From Deltaproteobacteria bacterium (GTDB lineage Bacteria; Desulfobacterota; GWC2-55-46; UBA9637), in contig JACQEJ010000028.1 in assembly GCA_016200645.1 (NCBI GenBank), positions 1 to 33,097 of the forward strand: 33,097 nucleotides of DNA, read 5' to 3'. Of this stretch, positions 10,355 through 18,976 are shown piece by piece. The translations under genes and the position numbers were made by a program. The notes under the pieces are model-generated. The model ran no database searches, was not told where the DNA came from, and saw nothing but the letters and a program-made list of their open reading frames with translations. Position 1 is the stretch's first letter, and every line of letters starts with the position of its first letter.

Positions 10355-11005
10355 TTAAATCTCCACCTTTGGATTTTCCAGCACACCTTCGGTCTTAGGC
10401 TGATTTTTTATTATGACCTTTCTCCCCCGTATCTCAATTCTTCCTTGCGCAAAAAATTGTATTGCCTGGGGGTATATCCTGTGCTCTTCTTTTAAAATCC
10501 TTTGAGCAAGGGTCTCCTCTGTATCATCATCATATACAGGCGCCACGGCCTGAATAATAACCGGGCCCGTATCAACTCCCTCATCAACAAAATGGACTGT
10601 GCAGCCGGAGAATTTTACTCCATATTCAACCGCCTTTTTCTGCGCACGAAGCCCTGGGAATGCCGGGAGCAGGGCAGGATGGATGTTCATAATCTTCATG
10701 GGAAACGCCCTGATAAAAGCCCGGCTCAAAAGCCTCATAAAACCAGCCAGAATCACCAGATCTACAGCATGGGATTTCAGTATCTCAACAAGATGCTTAT
10801 CGCAATCCTCACGCACGGGGAAGCGGTTGTCCTGAATGATAAATACAGGAATATGGTGTTTTTTTGCCCGCTCAATAGCATAGGCATCAGAATTATTGCT
10901 GATGACAATCTTTATGCGGGCATTCAGTTTGCCCGACTCAATGCTGTCTATTATGGCCTGGAGATTTGTGCCGCTGCCTGAGACCAAGACGGCTAAGTTA
11001 ATCAT
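10355..11005 (-). CDS. purN: Phosphoribosylglycinamide formyltransferase
   Basis: PurN transfers a formyl group from 10-formyl-tetrahydrofolate to GAR, the third step of IMP synthesis. The 216-residue protein has the phosphate loop [11 protein letters not shown] (8-18), the catalytic [12 protein letters not shown] block (Asn and His) and [17 protein letters not shown] with the catalytic Asp. The length fits the family, with a short C-terminal tail. The start ATG overlaps the purM stop by 4 bases (ATGA), so the two are translationally coupled. Confidence 0.96.
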
Positions 11006-12042
11006 ACAATGAAAACCTGCTCTTCCCCGGAGGTTCTTTTTTCTATCACACCGATTAAAAATGCCTTTTCTCTCAAAGCATTTAATTTTTCGAGAACTCC
11101 GGCAGTATCATTTTTTGATACGATGATTACCATGCCTATTCCGCAGTTAAATGTCCTGAACATCTCTCGTCTTGATATGTTGCCGGCCTCTTGTATCAAT
11201 TGAAATATGAATGGCGGTTTCCAACTATCTCTGAAAATTACAGCCTTTTGAGATTTCGGGAGTATCCTGGGGATATTTTCAATAAGCCCGCCGCCGGTGA
11301 TATGGGCAATGCCTTTTATGTTAGATTTTTTCCGGAGCGCCTTTATGATTTTTACATATATCCTCGTGGGCGTAAGCAGTTCTTCCCCGATATTTTTTTT
11401 AAGCCCTGATATTCTGCTTCCTGGCTTTAATTTTATCGAGTCAAAGAGAACCTTTCTTGCCAGAGAATATCCGTTGCTGTGCAGACCGCTGGATGCAAGG
11501 CCTATTATCTTATCTCCCGGTTTTATGTCGGAGCCGTCAATGATATTATCCTTCTCTGCTATTCCAACAACAAACCCTGCCAGGTCATATTCTCCGTCTT
11601 GATAAAATCCCGGCATTTCCGCTGTCTCGCCTCCAACCAGAGCGCATTCAGCCTCTTTGCATCCCTTTGCAATACCCTTAATTACTGTTGCAGCGGTCTT
11701 GGCATTGAGCTTTCCTGCTGCAAAATAATCCAGAAAAAATAAAGGCTCTGCGCCGCTTACAATCACATCATTTACACCCATTGCAACCAGATCTATGCCA
11801 ATGGTATCATGTTTGTTCAGCATGAATGCAATTTTCAGCTTTGTCCCAACTCCATCCGTTGATGAAACCAGAACAGGGTTTTTATATTTCTTGAGATCAA
11901 GCGCAAATAGCGCGCCAAAGCCGCCGATACCTGCCATGACCTCCGGCCGCGAAGCAGTTTCGGCAATAGGTTTTATGAGGTTTACAAGCCTTTCGCCTTC
12001 ATCTATATTTACGCCCGCTTTTTTATAGGTAATGCCCGGCAT
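11002..12042 (-). CDS. purM: Phosphoribosylformylglycinamidine cyclo-ligase (AIR synthetase)
   Basis: PurM closes FGAM to AIR with ATP, the fifth step of IMP synthesis. The product is 346 residues, full length. Family blocks are the start [74 protein letters not shown], and [23 protein letters not shown] lies 7 bases before the ATG. It heads the minus-strand unit purM-purN-DUF523. The purS and purQ genes are 10 kb away on the other strand. Confidence 0.97.
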
Positions 12043-12181
12043 CCTGTGTCCTCCTGATAGGTTGAAGGTTAGGAGCAGATCTTTTAGCGGCTGCCCTTAA
12101 CCCGCAGTTTCTGCGTAAGGTTAATTCAACTGACAGTTAAAGTCAATATTTTTAAATCTAAAAAAACAGTCTCAAAATTCC

Positions 12182-12209
12182 TTGACATGGATTGAGAATT
12201 GAGTATAAT
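12182..12209 (+). promoter_or_regulatory. Near-consensus sigma-70 promoter for the cytochrome operon
   Basis: TTGACA (12182-12187) and TATAAT (12204-12209) are both perfect consensus hexamers, 16 bases apart. Transcription would start near 12216, leaving a leader of roughly 110 bases before the cytochrome gene. Confidence 0.85.
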
Positions 12210-12215
12210 GAAACT

Positions 12216-12320
12216 AAGCTTATCAAGCTTACGGAGACCGATAAGCCGCTTCATAACGCAAAACGGGGTGATGGTGCCTCAGGATTGAGTTTCGATCTTG
12301 AGGTATTTTTTTTTAGGGGT
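12216..12320 (+). promoter_or_regulatory. Structured 5' leader of the cytochrome gene (candidate attenuator or riboswitch)
   Basis: The leader contains a 7-bp stem GCTTATC/GATAAGC (about 12218-12245), then a GC-containing stretch, then a complete intrinsic terminator (12277-12315) just before the ribosome-binding site. A terminator placed here makes sense only if it is conditional. I could not match the upstream part to a known aptamer class. Confidence 0.5.
12277..12315 (+). terminator. Intrinsic terminator in the cytochrome leader
   Basis: CCTCAGGAT and ATCTTGAGG form a 9-bp stem (one G-U pair) with a 9-base loop. TA and nine T residues follow. It ends 5 bases before the start region of the cytochrome gene. 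Confidence 0.75.
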
Positions 12321-12329
12321 ATGGTGAGC

Positions 12330-14417
12330 ATGAGAAGATTTTTACTCCTTTCTGCGATAGCCCTGATATTTGTCGCAGCATATCTATTGACAGATTTAAA
12401 ATCTGTCCCCACAAGCGCCTTTGCCACAGGCAATGCCTATACATCCACAAAACACGGCGGCGGCACAACAGACGGGGCGCTGCCATACGATGCAGGGAAC
12501 GGCCCGGGCGTTGACCGGTCTGTCAACCCGGATTACACGACAAAGTATTATAACAGCGCATCTGCAGGGGCAGGAAAGTATAAAGGCGGCGAGTGCAGCC
12601 AGTGCCATGAGCCCCACGCAAGCTTCGGAGGATATAATGGAGAGCCGCCGCCGAATTCAACTACCGGCGATACAGCCTCAGGGGAATCTGCAACAGAGCC
12701 CTGGCCTAGAAAGAGCCGCACTGGTTTAAATGCCGGCAATACTGGCAGCTGTCTTAACTGCCATACGCCCCACGGAATAAGCGGAAGCGCAAATTATGCC
12801 AATGATGTTGGAACTGCCCCTGCTTCAGGCAATTATAAAGTAACATCCACCACCCCCACGGGCCTCATTCCCCGACAGCTCATAGCATGGGAAGAGGCAT
12901 TGTGCCTGAGATGCCATGACAGCGATGGCCCTGCAACAGCAGGCGGCGCTATTACGACAAACATAAAGGCGGAGGTGGACAACTACCTCGCCACAGCGGG
13001 CAGCGGCCACCCTGTGCGGAGCGACACATATTATGGCAGGCATAACCTTGCCAATGAATCGCAGAATAAGTTGCCTGCAACAGGTTGGTTTACTGCAACC
13101 ACTTCTCACGCAGAATGCACGGACTGTCACAACCCTCACATTGTCAAGGGATATGGCTCAGCCCCGGGGACTTACCCGAACCCTCAGCGGGCCACTGTCT
13201 TCCAGTGGAGCGGCACAACGAGCTTTCAGCCAAACAGGTCTGTCGGAACTTACGGGGTCTATATCAGCCCTGTCAACTTCGGAGTATGGGGAATAACGGT
13301 TACTCAGGGTACAGGCGCCTACGCCTCTACCGTAGCCAACCTTGGCTCCACCAACTATGTCTACGAACTCTGCCTCAAATGCCATTCATACTGGGGGTCG
13401 GGCGACGGCGCCCCTGGAACATACACCAACCAACCCAACTCCCCGTCAACAGTAAGCCCAAAGGCATGGACAGACTCATGGATGCCTGTCAATTATAAAA
13501 TGACGGATCTGGCCGATGAATTCAAGACGAGTAATTACGGATTCCATCCTGTATTCGGTCAAGGGGTAAATACCCCTGAGGCTGCGAGTCTCAGAAACCC
13601 CAACTGGTGTAATGAGGGAACAGCTGCCTATGGCGGTAGCTGCACCAGCAAGGCAGGTGATAGGAGCGATTTATTCACTGCCCCGCCTTTTGCCAATGCG
13701 GCTCAGACCCTTTCCGAAAACTTTGTCCCGCCGTGGAACCATAAATCATTTATTACATGCGTTGACTGCCATGAGGCGGAAAATGTGGATGCGGCCGGCG
13801 CCATTGCCAGGGGACCCCACGGCTCTGCAAGGCCCTTTATCCTGAGGCAGTCAGATTCAAACATCTCCTATACTATCTGCGCTACCGCAGGCACAACTTC
13901 AGCGTGCGGCAGTACAACTTCCTATAGCTACGCCACTGTCCCCGGCGCTACTCCAAACTTCTGTCTCAACTGCCATAGGGTGGATGTCTATAGCTGCATG
14001 GGTTGTTACGGCGCTTCGCATGTAGCTACCTATAACAGCTTTGCCAGACAACCACACCCCCCGGACCCTGGCCGAAACTCCTTTGATACCAATCCCAACG
14101 GCAATCCTCCGCCCAGAGGGATTACCTGTCTATTCTGTCACGGCGGAGGGCTTAAAAGCGATGGCACAACAAAGCTTGGCACCATCCATGGAAGCAATGA
14201 GGGTGTTGGACCAAATGGAACCAGCGCCAGGGGTAAGCGCCTCCTTACGGGTGTTGCATGGAAGGGGGTTACAAGGAGCACAACTACTGCAGCGGGGAGT
14301 TGTTGGTTTGGCGCTTCCGGAGCAGGCACCCTCAATGGATGCACCCAGCATGGCAATGGTTTTACAGGAGCCATGAATGCTGCCGCAAATTATAATTATG
14401 ACCCAGGGCCTCCATAA
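12330..14417 (+). CDS. Exported multiheme c-type cytochrome (8 CXXCH plus one CXXCY)
   Basis: From the ATG at 12330 the product is 695 residues. It opens with a signal peptide MRRFLLLSAIALIFVAAYLL and a likely cut after SAFA. Heme-binding CXXCH motifs start at about residues 89, 141, 192, 263, 348, 477, 545 and 600. A ninth site at 556 reads CMGCY. Several motifs are followed by a PH pair (CSQCHEPH, CLNCHTPH, CTDCHNPH), typical of the doubled-CXXCH group seen in metal-reducer electron-transfer cytochromes. Start choice is uncertain: a GTG at 12324 is better spaced from AGGGG. An upstream frame to 12192 is ruled out because it overlaps the promoter. ResB/CcsA downstream would attach the hemes. 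Confidence 0.92.
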   Translation: MRRFLLLSAIALIFVAAYLLTDLKSVPTSAFATGNAYTSTKHGGGTTDGALPYDAGNGPGVDRSVNPDYTTKYYNSASAGAGKYKGGECSQCHEPHASFGGYNGEPPPNSTTGDTASGESATEPWPRKSRTGLNAGNTGSCLNCHTPHGISGSANYANDVGTAPASGNYKVTSTTPTGLIPRQLIAWEEALCLRCHDSDGPATAGGAITTNIKAEVDNYLATAGSGHPVRSDTYYGRHNLANESQNKLPATGWFTATTSHAECTDCHNPHIVKGYGSAPGTYPNPQRATVFQWSGTTSFQPNRSVGTYGVYISPVNFGVWGITVTQGTGAYASTVANLGSTNYVYELCLKCHSYWGSGDGAPGTYTNQPNSPSTVSPKAWTDSWMPVNYKMTDLADEFKTSNYGFHPVFGQGVNTPEAASLRNPNWCNEGTAAYGGSCTSKAGDRSDLFTAPPFANAAQTLSENFVPPWNHKSFITCVDCHEAENVDAAGAIARGPHGSARPFILRQSDSNISYTICATAGTTSACGSTTSYSYATVPGATPNFCLNCHRVDVYSCMGCYGASHVATYNSFARQPHPPDPGRNSFDTNPNGNPPPRGITCLFCHGGGLKSDGTTKLGTIHGSNEGVGPNGTSARGKRLLTGVAWKGVTRSTTTAAGSCWFGASGAGTLNGCTQHGNGFTGAMNAAANYNYDPGPP

Positions 14418-14486: not shown

Positions 14487-15626
14487 GTGAAAAAGGCATG
14501 CCTTTTTACTTTTATTTTTCTCTGCATCGCTATGCCGGCCTTCAGCGAACCACAGCTTATCTGGAAACAGGTATGGGATAGCGGACACAACGATTACACC
14601 CCTCATGTTATTCTGGATAAAAAAGGGAATATCTATGTGGCATCCTCTTTTAATAATCCGTTTGAAGCAGGGCATCAGGCTGATATGCGTTTAATGAAAT
14701 ATGACAACCAGGGCAATGTTGTATGGAATAGAACCTATGATGGAGGAGAGGGGAGTGATTATTCAAATGGGGTATTGCAGGATACTAAGGGGGATATATA
14801 TCTCTACGGGCAATCTTTTAATAAGAAAGATTCCCTCTGGGATTTGCGGATAATAAAATACAGCGAGAAAGGCGAAGTTATATGGAATATTTCAGATAAA
14901 GCCAATAAGAATACTGTAGCCATCGGGATTGATATAGCTGAGAATGACAACCTCTATATCCTCGGCCTCCAGACTCTGTTTGATAAAAAGATTATGAGGC
15001 TTAAGAGCTATGACAGCGCTGGAAAAGGGCTCTGGGAAAAGGATTATGATATAGTATTTGAACCAAAGGCAATGCGCCTGTATAAAGACGCAATATACAT
15101 AACCGGCAGCAGGTTCAATCCTCAAAAAAATGGATGGGACATGCTTCTCCTTAAATTAGACAGGTCAGGAAAGATGTTATGGGAAAAGGTTGTATATAAT
15201 AAGGGGCTGGATAATAAGCCGGTCTCAATTATATTTGATGAGAGCGGAAACATCTATATAGGAGGAACATCAGGAAACACCGAGGGGCCTGACAGATATT
15301 ATAAGGTTGTCCTCTTAAAATATACAGATTCAGGAAAACTCTTATGGGAGGGCAGTTATGACAGCAAGCTTGGTGATGTTGCCTGGGACGCACGGTTAGG
15401 GGAAGATGGCTTTATATATGTTACCGGGAACACGGGAGGCTCCCTTTTTGTGGTGAAATTTGATATGAATGGGAAGGTTCTCTGGCATGTGAATTATGAG
15501 GGCGGAGATAAAGATGTTGGAACAGGGGTAGCGGCAGATGAGAACGGCAATGTTATTGTTTGCGGTGTCACCATTACCAAGTCAACGAAAAGCCCTGATA
15601 TTCTTACCGTAAAATACCGGCAATGA
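14487..15626 (+). CDS. Exported beta-propeller protein (SBBP/PQQ-like repeats)
   Basis: The 379-residue product starts at GTG 14487 with AGGAGG 4 bases upstream; an ATG two bases earlier is followed directly by a stop. A signal peptide (MKKACLFTFIFLCIAMPAFS) precedes about seven repeats of 45-50 residues. Each has a pattern like D..GNIYV.G and LLK.D..GK.LWE, ending with a W-rich closing strand. This is typical of SBBP-type propellers. No enzyme motif or cysteine pair is seen. It probably works outside the inner membrane next to the cytochrome, perhaps as a scaffold, by position only. Confidence 0.82.
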   Translation: MKKACLFTFIFLCIAMPAFSEPQLIWKQVWDSGHNDYTPHVILDKKGNIYVASSFNNPFEAGHQADMRLMKYDNQGNVVWNRTYDGGEGSDYSNGVLQDTKGDIYLYGQSFNKKDSLWDLRIIKYSEKGEVIWNISDKANKNTVAIGIDIAENDNLYILGLQTLFDKKIMRLKSYDSAGKGLWEKDYDIVFEPKAMRLYKDAIYITGSRFNPQKNGWDMLLLKLDRSGKMLWEKVVYNKGLDNKPVSIIFDESGNIYIGGTSGNTEGPDRYYKVVLLKYTDSGKLLWEGSYDSKLGDVAWDARLGEDGFIYVTGNTGGSLFVVKFDMNGKVLWHVNYEGGDKDVGTGVAADENGNVIVCGVTITKSTKSPDILTVKYRQ

Positions 15627-15664
15627 ATCTTCCTATGTTAAAACTGTCCTCAAAAAATTAGCCT

Positions 15665-16150
15665 GTGAAGGATATTGCAAGAAAACTTATCGTTGACTGT
15701 CTTGTATGCGCCATAGTGTTTGCCGTTGTGTTGTATGGCTGCGCCTCGAATCGGCCTGATGAGAAAACAGCGCTCAAGATTGTTATCGCCAAATATAACA
15801 ACGCCCTTGTAGAGGCGTATAAAGACCAGTCTTTTGAGCCGCTGAAGGCTGTGGCAGCGGCGGATGAGGTGAGCAAGGTAGATACCATTGTCAGCTCCTA
15901 CCTCCAGGCGAACCAGATAATGGAGGCAGATCTCCGCAAAATAGACTTTAAAGATATAAAAATAAAAGGGGATAAGGCTGCTGTGAAGACATCCGAGGAC
16001 TGGTCTTACAGGTGGATTGATTACAGGACAGGCAAGGAGATTGAGCCGCTTAAGCCTGTTCATTATGAGATGGTTTATCATCTGATAAAAAAAGACCGCA
16101 AGTGGCTCGTGGAAAAGGTGGAGGAGACGGGTGAAGGGAAAAGGCCTTGA
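15665..16150 (+). CDS. Lipoprotein, possibly ARC6/IMS- or NTF2-like
   Basis: The 161-residue product starts at GTG 15665 without a strong ribosome-binding site. Its N-terminus has a hydrophobic segment and a lipobox ending LYGC (Cys26), so it is probably lipid-anchored. The rest alternates helices and strands. It includes a wxY-type block DWSYRWIDYRTGKEI and YEMVYHLIKKDRKWLVEKVEE, which recalls NTF2-like or ARC6-IMS domains. I do not recognise a specific family. It sits between the propeller and ResB and may assist at the outer face of the inner membrane. Confidence 0.7.
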   Translation: MKDIARKLIVDCLVCAIVFAVVLYGCASNRPDEKTALKIVIAKYNNALVEAYKDQSFEPLKAVAAADEVSKVDTIVSSYLQANQIMEADLRKIDFKDIKIKGDKAAVKTSEDWSYRWIDYRTGKEIEPLKPVHYEMVYHLIKKDRKWLVEKVEETGEGKRP

Positions 16151-16183
16151 AGGATATGACCCATATGTTGTAATATTTTAATA

Positions 16184-17218
16184 ATGAAGTTTTTCAGGTT
16201 CCTGGCATCACGGGGATTCGCTGTATTCCTCCTCGTCATCTCTACAGCCCTTCTCATTATCTGGAATAAATATCATGGCATTTACCATCCTCTCTTTCTC
16301 GTTATCCCTGCCTTTCTCTTTATCAGTATATCATTTTGTGTTGGAAGGAGAGCAGCTGCTGCTGATGCAAGGCGGAATGTGAGGTTTTTGGGGTCAATGA
16401 TATTTCATACAGGGATGCTGGTTATTATTGCATCCGCATCCCTCAGTCACCTCACGCGGTTCTTTGCCGCTGTTGTCCTCCCTCAGGGGATGCAGGTGGG
16501 CTTTGATAATAAGAACTTTTCTACTATATATGAGGAGCCATTGGGACTCAAAGACAGGCCGTTTGTGAATCTTAGACTGGACAACTATGAAGCGGTCTAT
16601 GCAGATGAAAGATTCCCCGTCAAATACTCCTCTGACATCAGTATCGGCATCATGGAAGACAATGCCTACCATACTGTAAAGGAGAGGATAGAAATAAACC
16701 GCCCGTTTCATTATAATGGCTACACCCTTCTTCTTGAGACAGCCAGGTATTCTCCCCGTTTTATTCTAAGGGATAGAGAGGGGAAAGCGCTCTTTGATGG
16801 TTTTATCAATCTTGCAAACATGACCGAGAATGAGGATGTATTCTCTATAAAAGAAGCCGGCCTCACACTCTATACCAGATTCTTCCCTGATATGTTTAGA
16901 GAAGGAAACAAGGTTGGGACCCGCTCGCCTGTTCTAAAAAATCCTGCCTTCGGCATAAAGATAGTAAAGAGAGACAACCCCTTTGCTGATATATGGAAAG
17001 GGGTGCTGAAGAAAGGGGAGGCCGCGAGGTTTGAGGATATGACCCTTGAATTTGCAGATTTGAAACCCTATGTCGTTATCCAGATTGTAAAGGATCCCAC
17101 ATACTGGGGGATTTTTACCGGCTGGATATTTATCATCGTTGGGCTCGTGATTCGATATGCGCCTGTGGCGCAGGAGAGGATGAAGGTGAGTTCAGACACG
17201 CATGGGGAGGGGATATGA
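16184..17218 (+). CDS. resB: Cytochrome c biogenesis protein ResB (Ccs1)
   Basis: ResB works with CcsA to move heme across the inner membrane and attach it to apocytochromes (System II). The 344-residue protein has N-terminal membrane helices (about 12-30, 35-52 and 65-82), a long extracytoplasmic part, and a last helix near 310-330 (WGIFTGWIFIIVGLVIRY). That is the usual ResB topology, although shorter than many ResB proteins. It overlaps ccsA by 4 bases. No clear ribosome-binding site precedes the ATG at 16184. Confidence 0.85.
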   Translation: MKFFRFLASRGFAVFLLVISTALLIIWNKYHGIYHPLFLVIPAFLFISISFCVGRRAAAADARRNVRFLGSMIFHTGMLVIIASASLSHLTRFFAAVVLPQGMQVGFDNKNFSTIYEEPLGLKDRPFVNLRLDNYEAVYADERFPVKYSSDISIGIMEDNAYHTVKERIEINRPFHYNGYTLLLETARYSPRFILRDREGKALFDGFINLANMTENEDVFSIKEAGLTLYTRFFPDMFREGNKVGTRSPVLKNPAFGIKIVKRDNPFADIWKGVLKKGEAARFEDMTLEFADLKPYVVIQIVKDPTYWGIFTGWIFIIVGLVIRYAPVAQERMKVSSDTHGEGI

Positions 17219-18057
17219 GATTCCTTGAAGGCATATTCCTCTGGTCAGCGATTGCATTCTATCTCTTTTCATTTCTTTTCTTCCTGAGCAGCATTGTTTT
17301 TAAGAAGGAAAGACAACTTCACCGGGCATGGGTGGGTTCTGTTATCGGCCTCGGCCTGCATACTTTAGCAATCCTTGTGAGGTGGATTGCCTCAGGCCAT
17401 CCTCCTGTTTATGGGAGTTTTGAGCACGCATTTGCAGGGAGTTGGTTTATTATGGTGATATTTTTTATTATCAGCGGACGATTCAAGCAGTTAAAGGCAG
17501 CAGGCGCTATCGTAGCCCCCTTTGTGCTGCTCATGCTGGGCTACGGCATCATGGGGCAGAGACTCGATATAGAGCCGCTTACGCCGCCGTATCAGAGCAA
17601 CTGGCTCTGGGTGCATGTAACATTTGCATGGATTGCATACGGCTCATATCATGTGGCAGCAGGGCTGGCTATCATGTATTTGTTGAAAGAAAGGGCGCTG
17701 CGGACAATGAAAACCGGGGAGAGGCTTTCCCGATTGTATCAGTTTTTTCCTGACCTGCCGGTGTTGGATGACCTGATCTTTAAATTGATAGTCTACGGCT
17801 TTATCGCCCACATCGTCATGCTGGGCGCTGGCGCCTTATGGGCATACGGCCTATGGGGGAGATACTGGGCATGGGACCCTATTGAGACATGGAGCCTTAT
17901 AACATGGCTCGTGTATGGCGTGAACATACACCTGAGGGTTACCTACCAGTGGAACGGCGCAAGAGGGGCGTGGCTTGCAATTATCTCCCTCATCGGTATA
18001 CTAATTACCTTTGGAGGCATCGGCTTTGTGGGAGGCGTGCATACGCCGCTTTTATAG
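17215..18057 (+). CDS. ccsA: Cytochrome c biogenesis protein CcsA (ResC)
   Basis: This 280-residue membrane protein has about eight helices and the tryptophan-rich heme-handling WWD domain, GRYWAWDPIETWSLITWL (W218-D221 region). Conserved histidines such as HVTFAWIAYGSYH and the later FIAHIVML fit the CcsA heme ligands. With ResB it forms the System II synthetase, which needs reduced apocytochrome on the outer face. The start overlaps the resB stop (ATGA). Its likely client is the multiheme cytochrome upstream. Confidence 0.93.
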   Translation: MRFLEGIFLWSAIAFYLFSFLFFLSSIVFKKERQLHRAWVGSVIGLGLHTLAILVRWIASGHPPVYGSFEHAFAGSWFIMVIFFIISGRFKQLKAAGAIVAPFVLLMLGYGIMGQRLDIEPLTPPYQSNWLWVHVTFAWIAYGSYHVAAGLAIMYLLKERALRTMKTGERLSRLYQFFPDLPVLDDLIFKLIVYGFIAHIVMLGAGALWAYGLWGRYWAWDPIETWSLITWLVYGVNIHLRVTYQWNGARGAWLAIISLIGILITFGGIGFVGGVHTPLL

Positions 18058-18486: not shown

Positions 18487-18870
18487 ATGGAAAACAGATG
18501 GGTAAATAAAGACGGCAAGATAGGCATCGGCGCTCTGGTATGGCTTTTTATAATAGCAGTTCTCGTCTACCTCGGCATAAAATTTGTTCCTCCCTATTTT
18601 ACTTATTACATGTTTAAGGGCGAGGTTGACGGCGAGGCAAAGACAGCCCATGTATATTCCGATCAGGATATCATAAAACATATCATGGACAGGGCCATGG
18701 AGTCGGAGCTTCCCATTGAAGAGAAGGACATTGTGCTGGAGAGAAGGGAATCTGAAATCGAGGTTTCTATAACCTATGATATCGTTGTAAACTTTTTTGA
18801 CAGATATTTTAAAACGCTTCATTTGGAAATACACACGACTCAACCGATCACGGCTAAACATTATACTTGA
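18487..18870 (+). CDS. Single-pass membrane protein, DUF4845-like
   Basis: The product is 127 residues from ATG 18487 (130 if from 18478). It has one membrane helix (about 13-30, ALVWLFIIAVLVYLGIKFVPP), then a soluble alpha/beta part with a DRAMESELPIEEKDIVL block. The layout (GK-G-ALV...hydrophobic...K-VPPY) resembles DUF4845 proteins, whose role is unknown. There is no Shine-Dalgarno site, and a promoter sits directly upstream. It ends 2 bases before the PyrR-binding element, so the pyr promoter probably lies inside or upstream of this gene. Confidence 0.65.
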   Translation: MENRWVNKDGKIGIGALVWLFIIAVLVYLGIKFVPPYFTYYMFKGEVDGEAKTAHVYSDQDIIKHIMDRAMESELPIEEKDIVLERRESEIEVSITYDIVVNFFDRYFKTLHLEIHTTQPITAKHYT

Positions 18871-18872
18871 TG

Positions 18873-18907
18873 CCCTTTTAATTTGGCCCGGAGAGGTTAA
18901 GAAAGGG
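18873..18907 (+). promoter_or_regulatory. PyrR-binding RNA loop (pyr attenuator)
   Basis: GGCCCGGAGAGGTT (18885-18898) fits the PyrR site consensus ARUCCNGNGAGGYU at 12 of 14 positions. The stem CC/GG closes a CGGAGA hexaloop (18889-18894). Outer arms CCCTTTTAA and TTAAGAAAGGG complete a stem with an internal bulge, as in the Bacillus binding loops. A terminator and the pyrR gene follow. Confidence 0.8.
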
Positions 18908-18937
18908 ATGAAAATGAAAAGACATATTTTATGGATG

Positions 18938-18976
18938 CCTCTTTGTCAGATTGAGAGATAAGGAGGTATTTTTTTT
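18938..18976 (+). terminator. Attenuator terminator upstream of pyrR
   Basis: CCTCTTTGTC and GATAAGGAGG form a 10-bp stem (two G-U pairs) around a 9-base loop. TA and eight T residues follow. The left arm CCTCT can instead pair with AGAGG inside the PyrR-binding loop, giving the antiterminator. Confidence 0.8.

Follow-up and report, generated by a model that had tools for sequence, protein, structure and literature searches.

What is an intrinsic terminator doing directly in front of the start codon of a gene that is served by a perfect promoter? The question is raised by the leader of a multiheme cytochrome gene in the window analyzed here, i.e., the whole stretch of 33,097 nucleotides. An earlier note had described a consensus promoter, a short leader and, just ahead of the start codon, a full intrinsic terminator, and all three are borne out: the hexamers match the consensus at 12 of 12 positions and the terminator hairpin has a predicted energy of -19.7 to -20.4 kcal/mol. 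A promoter, a short leader and an intrinsic terminator 5' of a gene, with no upstream gene for it to end, are the general marks of an attenuator. With a modest preference over the other readings taken together, we propose that the leader is a transcription attenuator of the cytochrome gene and probably also of the maturation genes behind it. The features discussed below are collected in Table 1.

Table 1. Features of the cytochrome locus in the window and strong extragenic terminators in the sampled part of the genome (loci outside the window carry an L number).
Feature	Position	Strand	Basis or remark
Sigma-70 type promoter, perfect hexamers	12182..12209	+	Hexamer match; start placed near 12216 from spacing
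5' hairpin GCUUAUC/GAUAAGC	12218..12246	+	Fold; stability not above shuffles
Linker with ACGCAAAACGGGG at 12256-12268, weakly paired or unpaired; proposed aptamer core	12247..12272	+	No Rfam match
Possible mini-ORF VMVPQD / MVPQD / VPQD, stop within terminator 5' arm	12268..12288	+	Chance level
Intrinsic terminator, 16-bp stem 12273-12307 and nine-T tract 12306-12314	12273..12314	+	Fold and shuffle tests
Shine-Dalgarno AGGGG and 10-nt spacer	12315..12329	+	Common to two same-genus homologs
Multiheme c-type cytochrome, 695 aa, 8 CXXCH, paired-CXXCH family, signal-peptide-like hydrophobic N-terminus	12330..14417	+	Sequence
Beta-propeller repeat protein, NTF2-like, ResB-like and CcsB-like cytochrome c maturation genes	14487..18057	+	Probable rest of the unit; co-transcription presumed
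purM, divergent neighbour	11002..12042	-	Gene orientation; terminator not its end
Gene-end terminators	L225:1580, L225:2678, L229:18729, L230:15056, L237:19969		Surroundings read by eye
AT-rich repeat-like hairpin	L229:2998		Neither gene end nor leader
Leader-type terminators	Cytochrome leader; window 18934 (before pyrR-like gene); L233:1145		

We place the start of the cytochrome gene at ATG 12330, because it aligns there with the conserved N-termini of its homologs (MRRFLLL / MKRFLLL) and because the Shine-Dalgarno sequence with its spacer (AGGGGTATGGTGAGCATG) aligns with GGGGGTATTGTGAACATG of a same-genus homolog. Upstream on the + strand, TTGACA (12182-12187) and TATAAT (12204-12209) are separated by 16 nt. 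An exact pair of these hexamers with a spacer of 15 to 19 nt occurs once in the window and at least once in 4 of 100 whole-window shuffles. Where TTGACA can be identified in homologs, it stands 152 nt from the ATG in a genome of the same family (G005) and 132 and 128 nt in a same-genus genome (G001), which is similar to the 148 nt found here and suggests that the promoter is the cytochrome gene's own. The gene would be read mainly from this promoter. In G005 the cytochrome, NTF2-like, ResB and CcsB genes stand in identical order, so that the cytochrome gene on its contig C35 can be regarded as the syntenic ortholog.

Terminator-like sites as such are no rarity in this sequence. A loose scanner applied to 3.5 kb finds 4 of them against 4.2 in shuffles, and it is therefore only by its strength and its position that the terminator of the cytochrome leader stands apart. 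Its 16 pairs enclose a loop of 3; the stem begins about 57 nt past the predicted transcription start, and the T-tract stops directly 5' of the Shine-Dalgarno sequence. In 1000 dinucleotide shuffles of 12043-12329, a hairpin followed by at least 7 T of 9 reaches -10 kcal/mol in 27 cases, -15 kcal/mol in 2 and -19.7 kcal/mol in none. As the upstream neighbour purM is divergent, there is no preceding same-strand gene for the terminator to end.

In the proposed mechanism, transcription would start near 12216, run for about 60 nt and meet the intrinsic terminator. In the absence of a signal most transcripts would end at about 12310. The signal, be it a bound protein, a ribosome, a small RNA or a small molecule, would engage the first 57-75 nt and block closure of the terminator stem. 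With the stem kept open, the polymerase would continue into the Shine-Dalgarno sequence and the cytochrome gene. Since no second promoter lies between the T-tract and the Shine-Dalgarno sequence, all mRNA from the promoter at 12182-12209 must read through the terminator. The same arrangement, with the T-tract adjoining the cytochrome Shine-Dalgarno sequence, speaks against the idea that the product between promoter and terminator is a separate small RNA, about 95 nt long, with the cytochrome gene being read by leakage or as a by-stander. The promoter-to-ATG distance shared with the homologs also tells against it. A 5' hairpin, a single-stranded middle and an intrinsic terminator are the typical anatomy of a bacterial small RNA, and equally that of a leader; restriction to one lineage is common for small RNAs as well. 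On balance we consider a stand-alone small RNA unlikely.

The other terminators of this genome offer a frame of reference for the attenuator reading. We sampled 353,859 of its 1,977,582 bases, in 45 stretches including the window and with 293 ORFs, and found 52 terminator-like sites at -12 kcal/mol. Outside ORFs there are 24, nine of which reach -15 kcal/mol (at least 7 T of 9). Sorted by eye into leaders and gene ends after a crude ORF call, these nine comprise five gene ends, one repeat-like hairpin and three of leader type, with a divergent gene on one side and a same-strand gene on the other. The gene ends include a terminator 37 nt past a cold-shock-type ORF (L230:15056) and one behind a citrate-synthase-like ORF (L237:19969), names which, like that of PyrR, were read from the sequence alone, without a family search. 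Two further gene-end terminators (L225:1580-1608 and 2678-2706) are strong, near-identical (AAGGGGAAGGTT..AACCTTCCCCTT) and about 1.1 kb apart.

Both leader-type cases other than the cytochrome leader correspond to known attenuators. At 18870-18975 (+) of the window, before the pyrR-like gene, lies a PyrR site (RF00515; 49.6 bits, E 3.3e-6, gathering threshold 54), the sole RF00515 match in this genome. A SAM riboswitch (RF00162, 98.1 bits) is found at L233:1021-1136, and the riboswitch of SAM-I type together with its terminator (L233:1021-1174) precedes a threonine-synthase-like ORF. Leader terminators thus go with attenuation in this genome, which is the strongest argument for regulation, although it relies on our own sorting and two other cases do not suffice to set a prior. 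Taken together, the divergent purM, the absence of so strong a terminator from 1000 shuffles and the identity of the other two leader terminators make regulated attenuation the best reading.

The likeness to these two systems extends to details of the layout. As in the cytochrome leader, a leader hairpin of the PyrR attenuator is followed by an intrinsic terminator, about 22 nt 5' of the start codon, and the foot and tail of both terminators are identical over 14 nt (GAGGTATTTTTTTT; 12300-12313 and 18963-18976). The core of this stretch, GAGGTATTTTTTT, has four copies in the genome, two within coding sequence and two being these leader terminators of the window; since only two leader cases share it, no family of terminator ends can be claimed. 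The upstream RNA differs: in the PyrR attenuator it is a recognisable PyrR site, present in 13 of 13 near genomes, whereas the RF00515 covariance model finds no match in the cytochrome leader. The SAM-I riboswitch shares with the cytochrome leader a divergent neighbour, a consensus-like promoter, a leader RNA and a terminator, but matches Rfam at 98 bits and has an aptamer region of 125 nt that folds strongly (z -4.4), as opposed to the 57 nt of the cytochrome leader that fold near chance.

Two further modes of control were considered and set aside. Targets of ANTAR antitermination consist of dual stem-loops with hexaloops carrying A at position 1 and G at position 4, and the second stem-loop overlaps the terminator. 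This genome has genes for two ANTAR-domain proteins (L253, G000:C84:22958-23116; L254, G000:C40:1876-2034; in frames of 211 and 198 aa), and so the locus resembles such systems in having both a terminator and ANTAR-domain proteins in the genome. The leader was rejected as an ANTAR target since paired hairpins with AxxGxx hexaloops are missing from it; the best candidate has a 3-bp stem. Control by CsrA, suggested by GGA in small hairpins (12233-12235 and 12282-12284), was dropped as PF02599 gives 0 matches in this genome, which is estimated to be 94% complete.

The part of the leader upstream of the terminator is where an attenuator would receive its signal. The earlier note had pointed here to a GCTTATC...GATAAGC stem followed by ACGCAAAACGGGG, and these elements are indeed present: GCTTATC at 12218-12224 is complementary to GATAAGC at 12240-12246, and a second GCUUA copy (12227-12231) offers an alternative partner for the same 3' strand of the hairpin. 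The whole leader folds better than its shuffles (z -4.64; 0 of 200 as good). This strong value is the terminator's, because the upstream part alone is near its shuffles, with z -0.59 for 12216-12280 (equaled by 50 of 200) and z -1.25 for the 57 nt of 12216-12272 (equaled by 34 of 300). Pairing is predicted between 12218-12225 and the start region (12322-12329), and 117 of 500 shuffles do equally well; a leader whose 5' end masks the start region is thus possible but at chance level. A scan for an antiterminator gives a gain of -4.3 kcal/mol, equaled by 243 of 300 shuffles. It decides nothing, since the known PyrR and SAM leaders are likewise undistinguished by it (286 of 300 and 258 of 300, respectively).

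Translation could in principle supply the signal: a ribosome translating the mini-ORF (M)VPQD, which ends at 12288, would cover the 5' arm of the terminator and thereby permit read-through. GGGG lies 2-5 nt 5' of the possible starts ATG 12271 and GTG 12274, and the stop falls inside the 5' arm. However, an equally good mini-ORF occurs in 207 of 1000 leaders with a shuffled upstream part, and this one contains no regulatory codon run. We therefore rate such translation-coupled attenuation as very unlikely.

If the upstream part were a conserved regulatory RNA, relatives might be expected elsewhere. The leader has no match above the gathering threshold among 4227 Rfam 15 families, in line with the earlier statement that the upstream part fits no known class; cmscan of 12150-12400 against these families at E up to 10 returns just a chance match to mir-5045 (E 7.6). 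By blastn of 12170-12330, 37 of 59 genomes (the own genome and 58 down to class level) give some match at E up to 1, and those outside the own genome are short chance matches, the best with E 0.028 over 25 nt. A blastn search of 395 phylum genomes with 12210-12320 gives six at E up to 0.01 including the own; the other five matches span 19-28 nt with E values of 0.001 to 0.007, which is roughly the yield of chance in 394 genomes. The covariance search in related genomes that had been suggested recovered no relative of the leader, with a model built from the window sequence alone, entered twice, which with strict filters could miss diverged relatives. The own copy scores 92.7 bits; the best match in 60 other near genomes (L078, 26.7 bits) falls where two convergent ORFs end, outside 5' leaders, and 394 other phylum genomes, a set that overlaps with the near genomes for some members, give none at E 0.01. 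The same kind of search recovered the PyrR leader in 13 of 13 near genomes as a positive control. Plasmids and phages yielded nothing, nor did viral contigs, which were searched for a 19-mer and gave no relative of the cytochrome protein. The upstream part of the leader is single-copy in its own genome, and the leader is restricted to this lineage.

The cytochrome protein itself has matches in 44 of 97 genomes including the own. At 22 loci the N-terminus was in reach and up to 250 nt upstream were scanned; L026 and L058 (no N-terminus) and L065 (a duplicate of L033) were excluded. The terminator of the window lies 23 nt from the ATG. Of 21 homologous cytochrome genes, some of them distant paralogs with approximate starts, none shows a terminator in the 150 nt before the start, and three have one at 162-181 nt. 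In G005, the leader of the syntenic ortholog has a strong hairpin behind its promoter, or at least both elements, and lacks a T-tract. Compared with RNA families, the homolog leaders of G005 and G001 give nothing convincing, the best being PsrR1, which scores 25.1 bits against a gathering threshold of 42 and lies on the opposite strand. In a contig search with the cytochrome protein, 80 of 184 loci were kept. It gave one strong relative, L090, whose record seems to be that of G012; the protein ranking next is 28% identical, and the leaders of these loci were therefore left out of the comparison. Two loci of the same-genus genome G001 (L035 on C19 and L055 on C9) have near-identical cytochrome leaders that contain an inverted repeat (CCATATCAG..CTGATGG) and lack a terminator, indicative of a recent duplication.

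Several of these results count against an attenuator: no conservation of the leader and no nearby terminator in the 21 homologs, as well as no recognisable antiterminator, although by that test the known PyrR and SAM leaders show none either. A partly efficient or chance terminator that is not regulated would set a low constant expression in this lineage, an alternative that agrees with the lack of conservation in the 21 homologous leaders and in any relative searched and with an upstream part that is not unusually structured. Against it stand the 1000 shuffles, none of which produced such strength, and the wastefulness of a perfect promoter directly before such a terminator. We regard an unregulated terminator as unlikely and maintain that the leader is probably a lineage-specific attenuator of a known kind.

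A close precedent for such a leader comes from Geobacter, where many multiheme cytochromes are under GEMM-Ib riboswitches that sense cGAMP; the element of pgcA has a terminator (PMC6456294). The GEMM-Ib and c-di-GMP-I riboswitches of Geobacter (RF01051) share with the cytochrome leader their place before extracellular electron-transfer cytochromes and the terminator as expression platform. GEMM-Ib elements recur at many genes, in contrast to the single-copy cytochrome leader, and RF01051 (GEMM-I / c-di-GMP-I / cGAMP) has no match in 12150-12400 at E up to 10 and 0 in the own genome. At E 0.001 it is found in 29 of 61 near genomes and in 0 of 5 of this genus, a distribution that suggests its loss in the genus. 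The leader resembles a GEMM switch at most in the expression platform and is not a member of the family. In the open-licence PMC literature, no paper on transcription attenuation in c-type cytochrome leaders was found.

The Geobacter case, a leader whose size and position would suffice for a short aptamer, and a SAM riboswitch of the same layout in this genome all speak for a new class of small-molecule riboswitch for electron-transfer genes. This is nevertheless the explanation we find least credible, given a leader that is single-copy and has no homolog in 60 near (best 26.7 bits) or 394 phylum genomes (E 0.01), and an upstream fold near chance. The aptamer that the earlier note placed upstream of the terminator is not supported by the same observations. 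Its candidate new regulatory RNA for electron-transfer genes has no second example in the relatives searched, and in 0 of 21 homologous leaders does a terminator stand within 150 nt. To propose a new RNA class would be to rely on one unconserved leader, with no support beyond one sequence. It is also highly improbable, in our estimate, that a lineage-restricted sensory RNA of about 57 nt, whose duplicated GCUUA strands would compete for one partner, controls read-through into the cytochrome and maturation operon in replacement of the cyclic-dinucleotide riboswitches present in many relatives and missing from this genus.

If the terminator is regulated as we propose, the expression of the cytochrome and the maturation genes in this uncultured lineage would be decided by read-through, as in Geobacter. 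With the known cyclic-dinucleotide riboswitch absent, the locus would then provide a clean test case for another electron-transfer signal.
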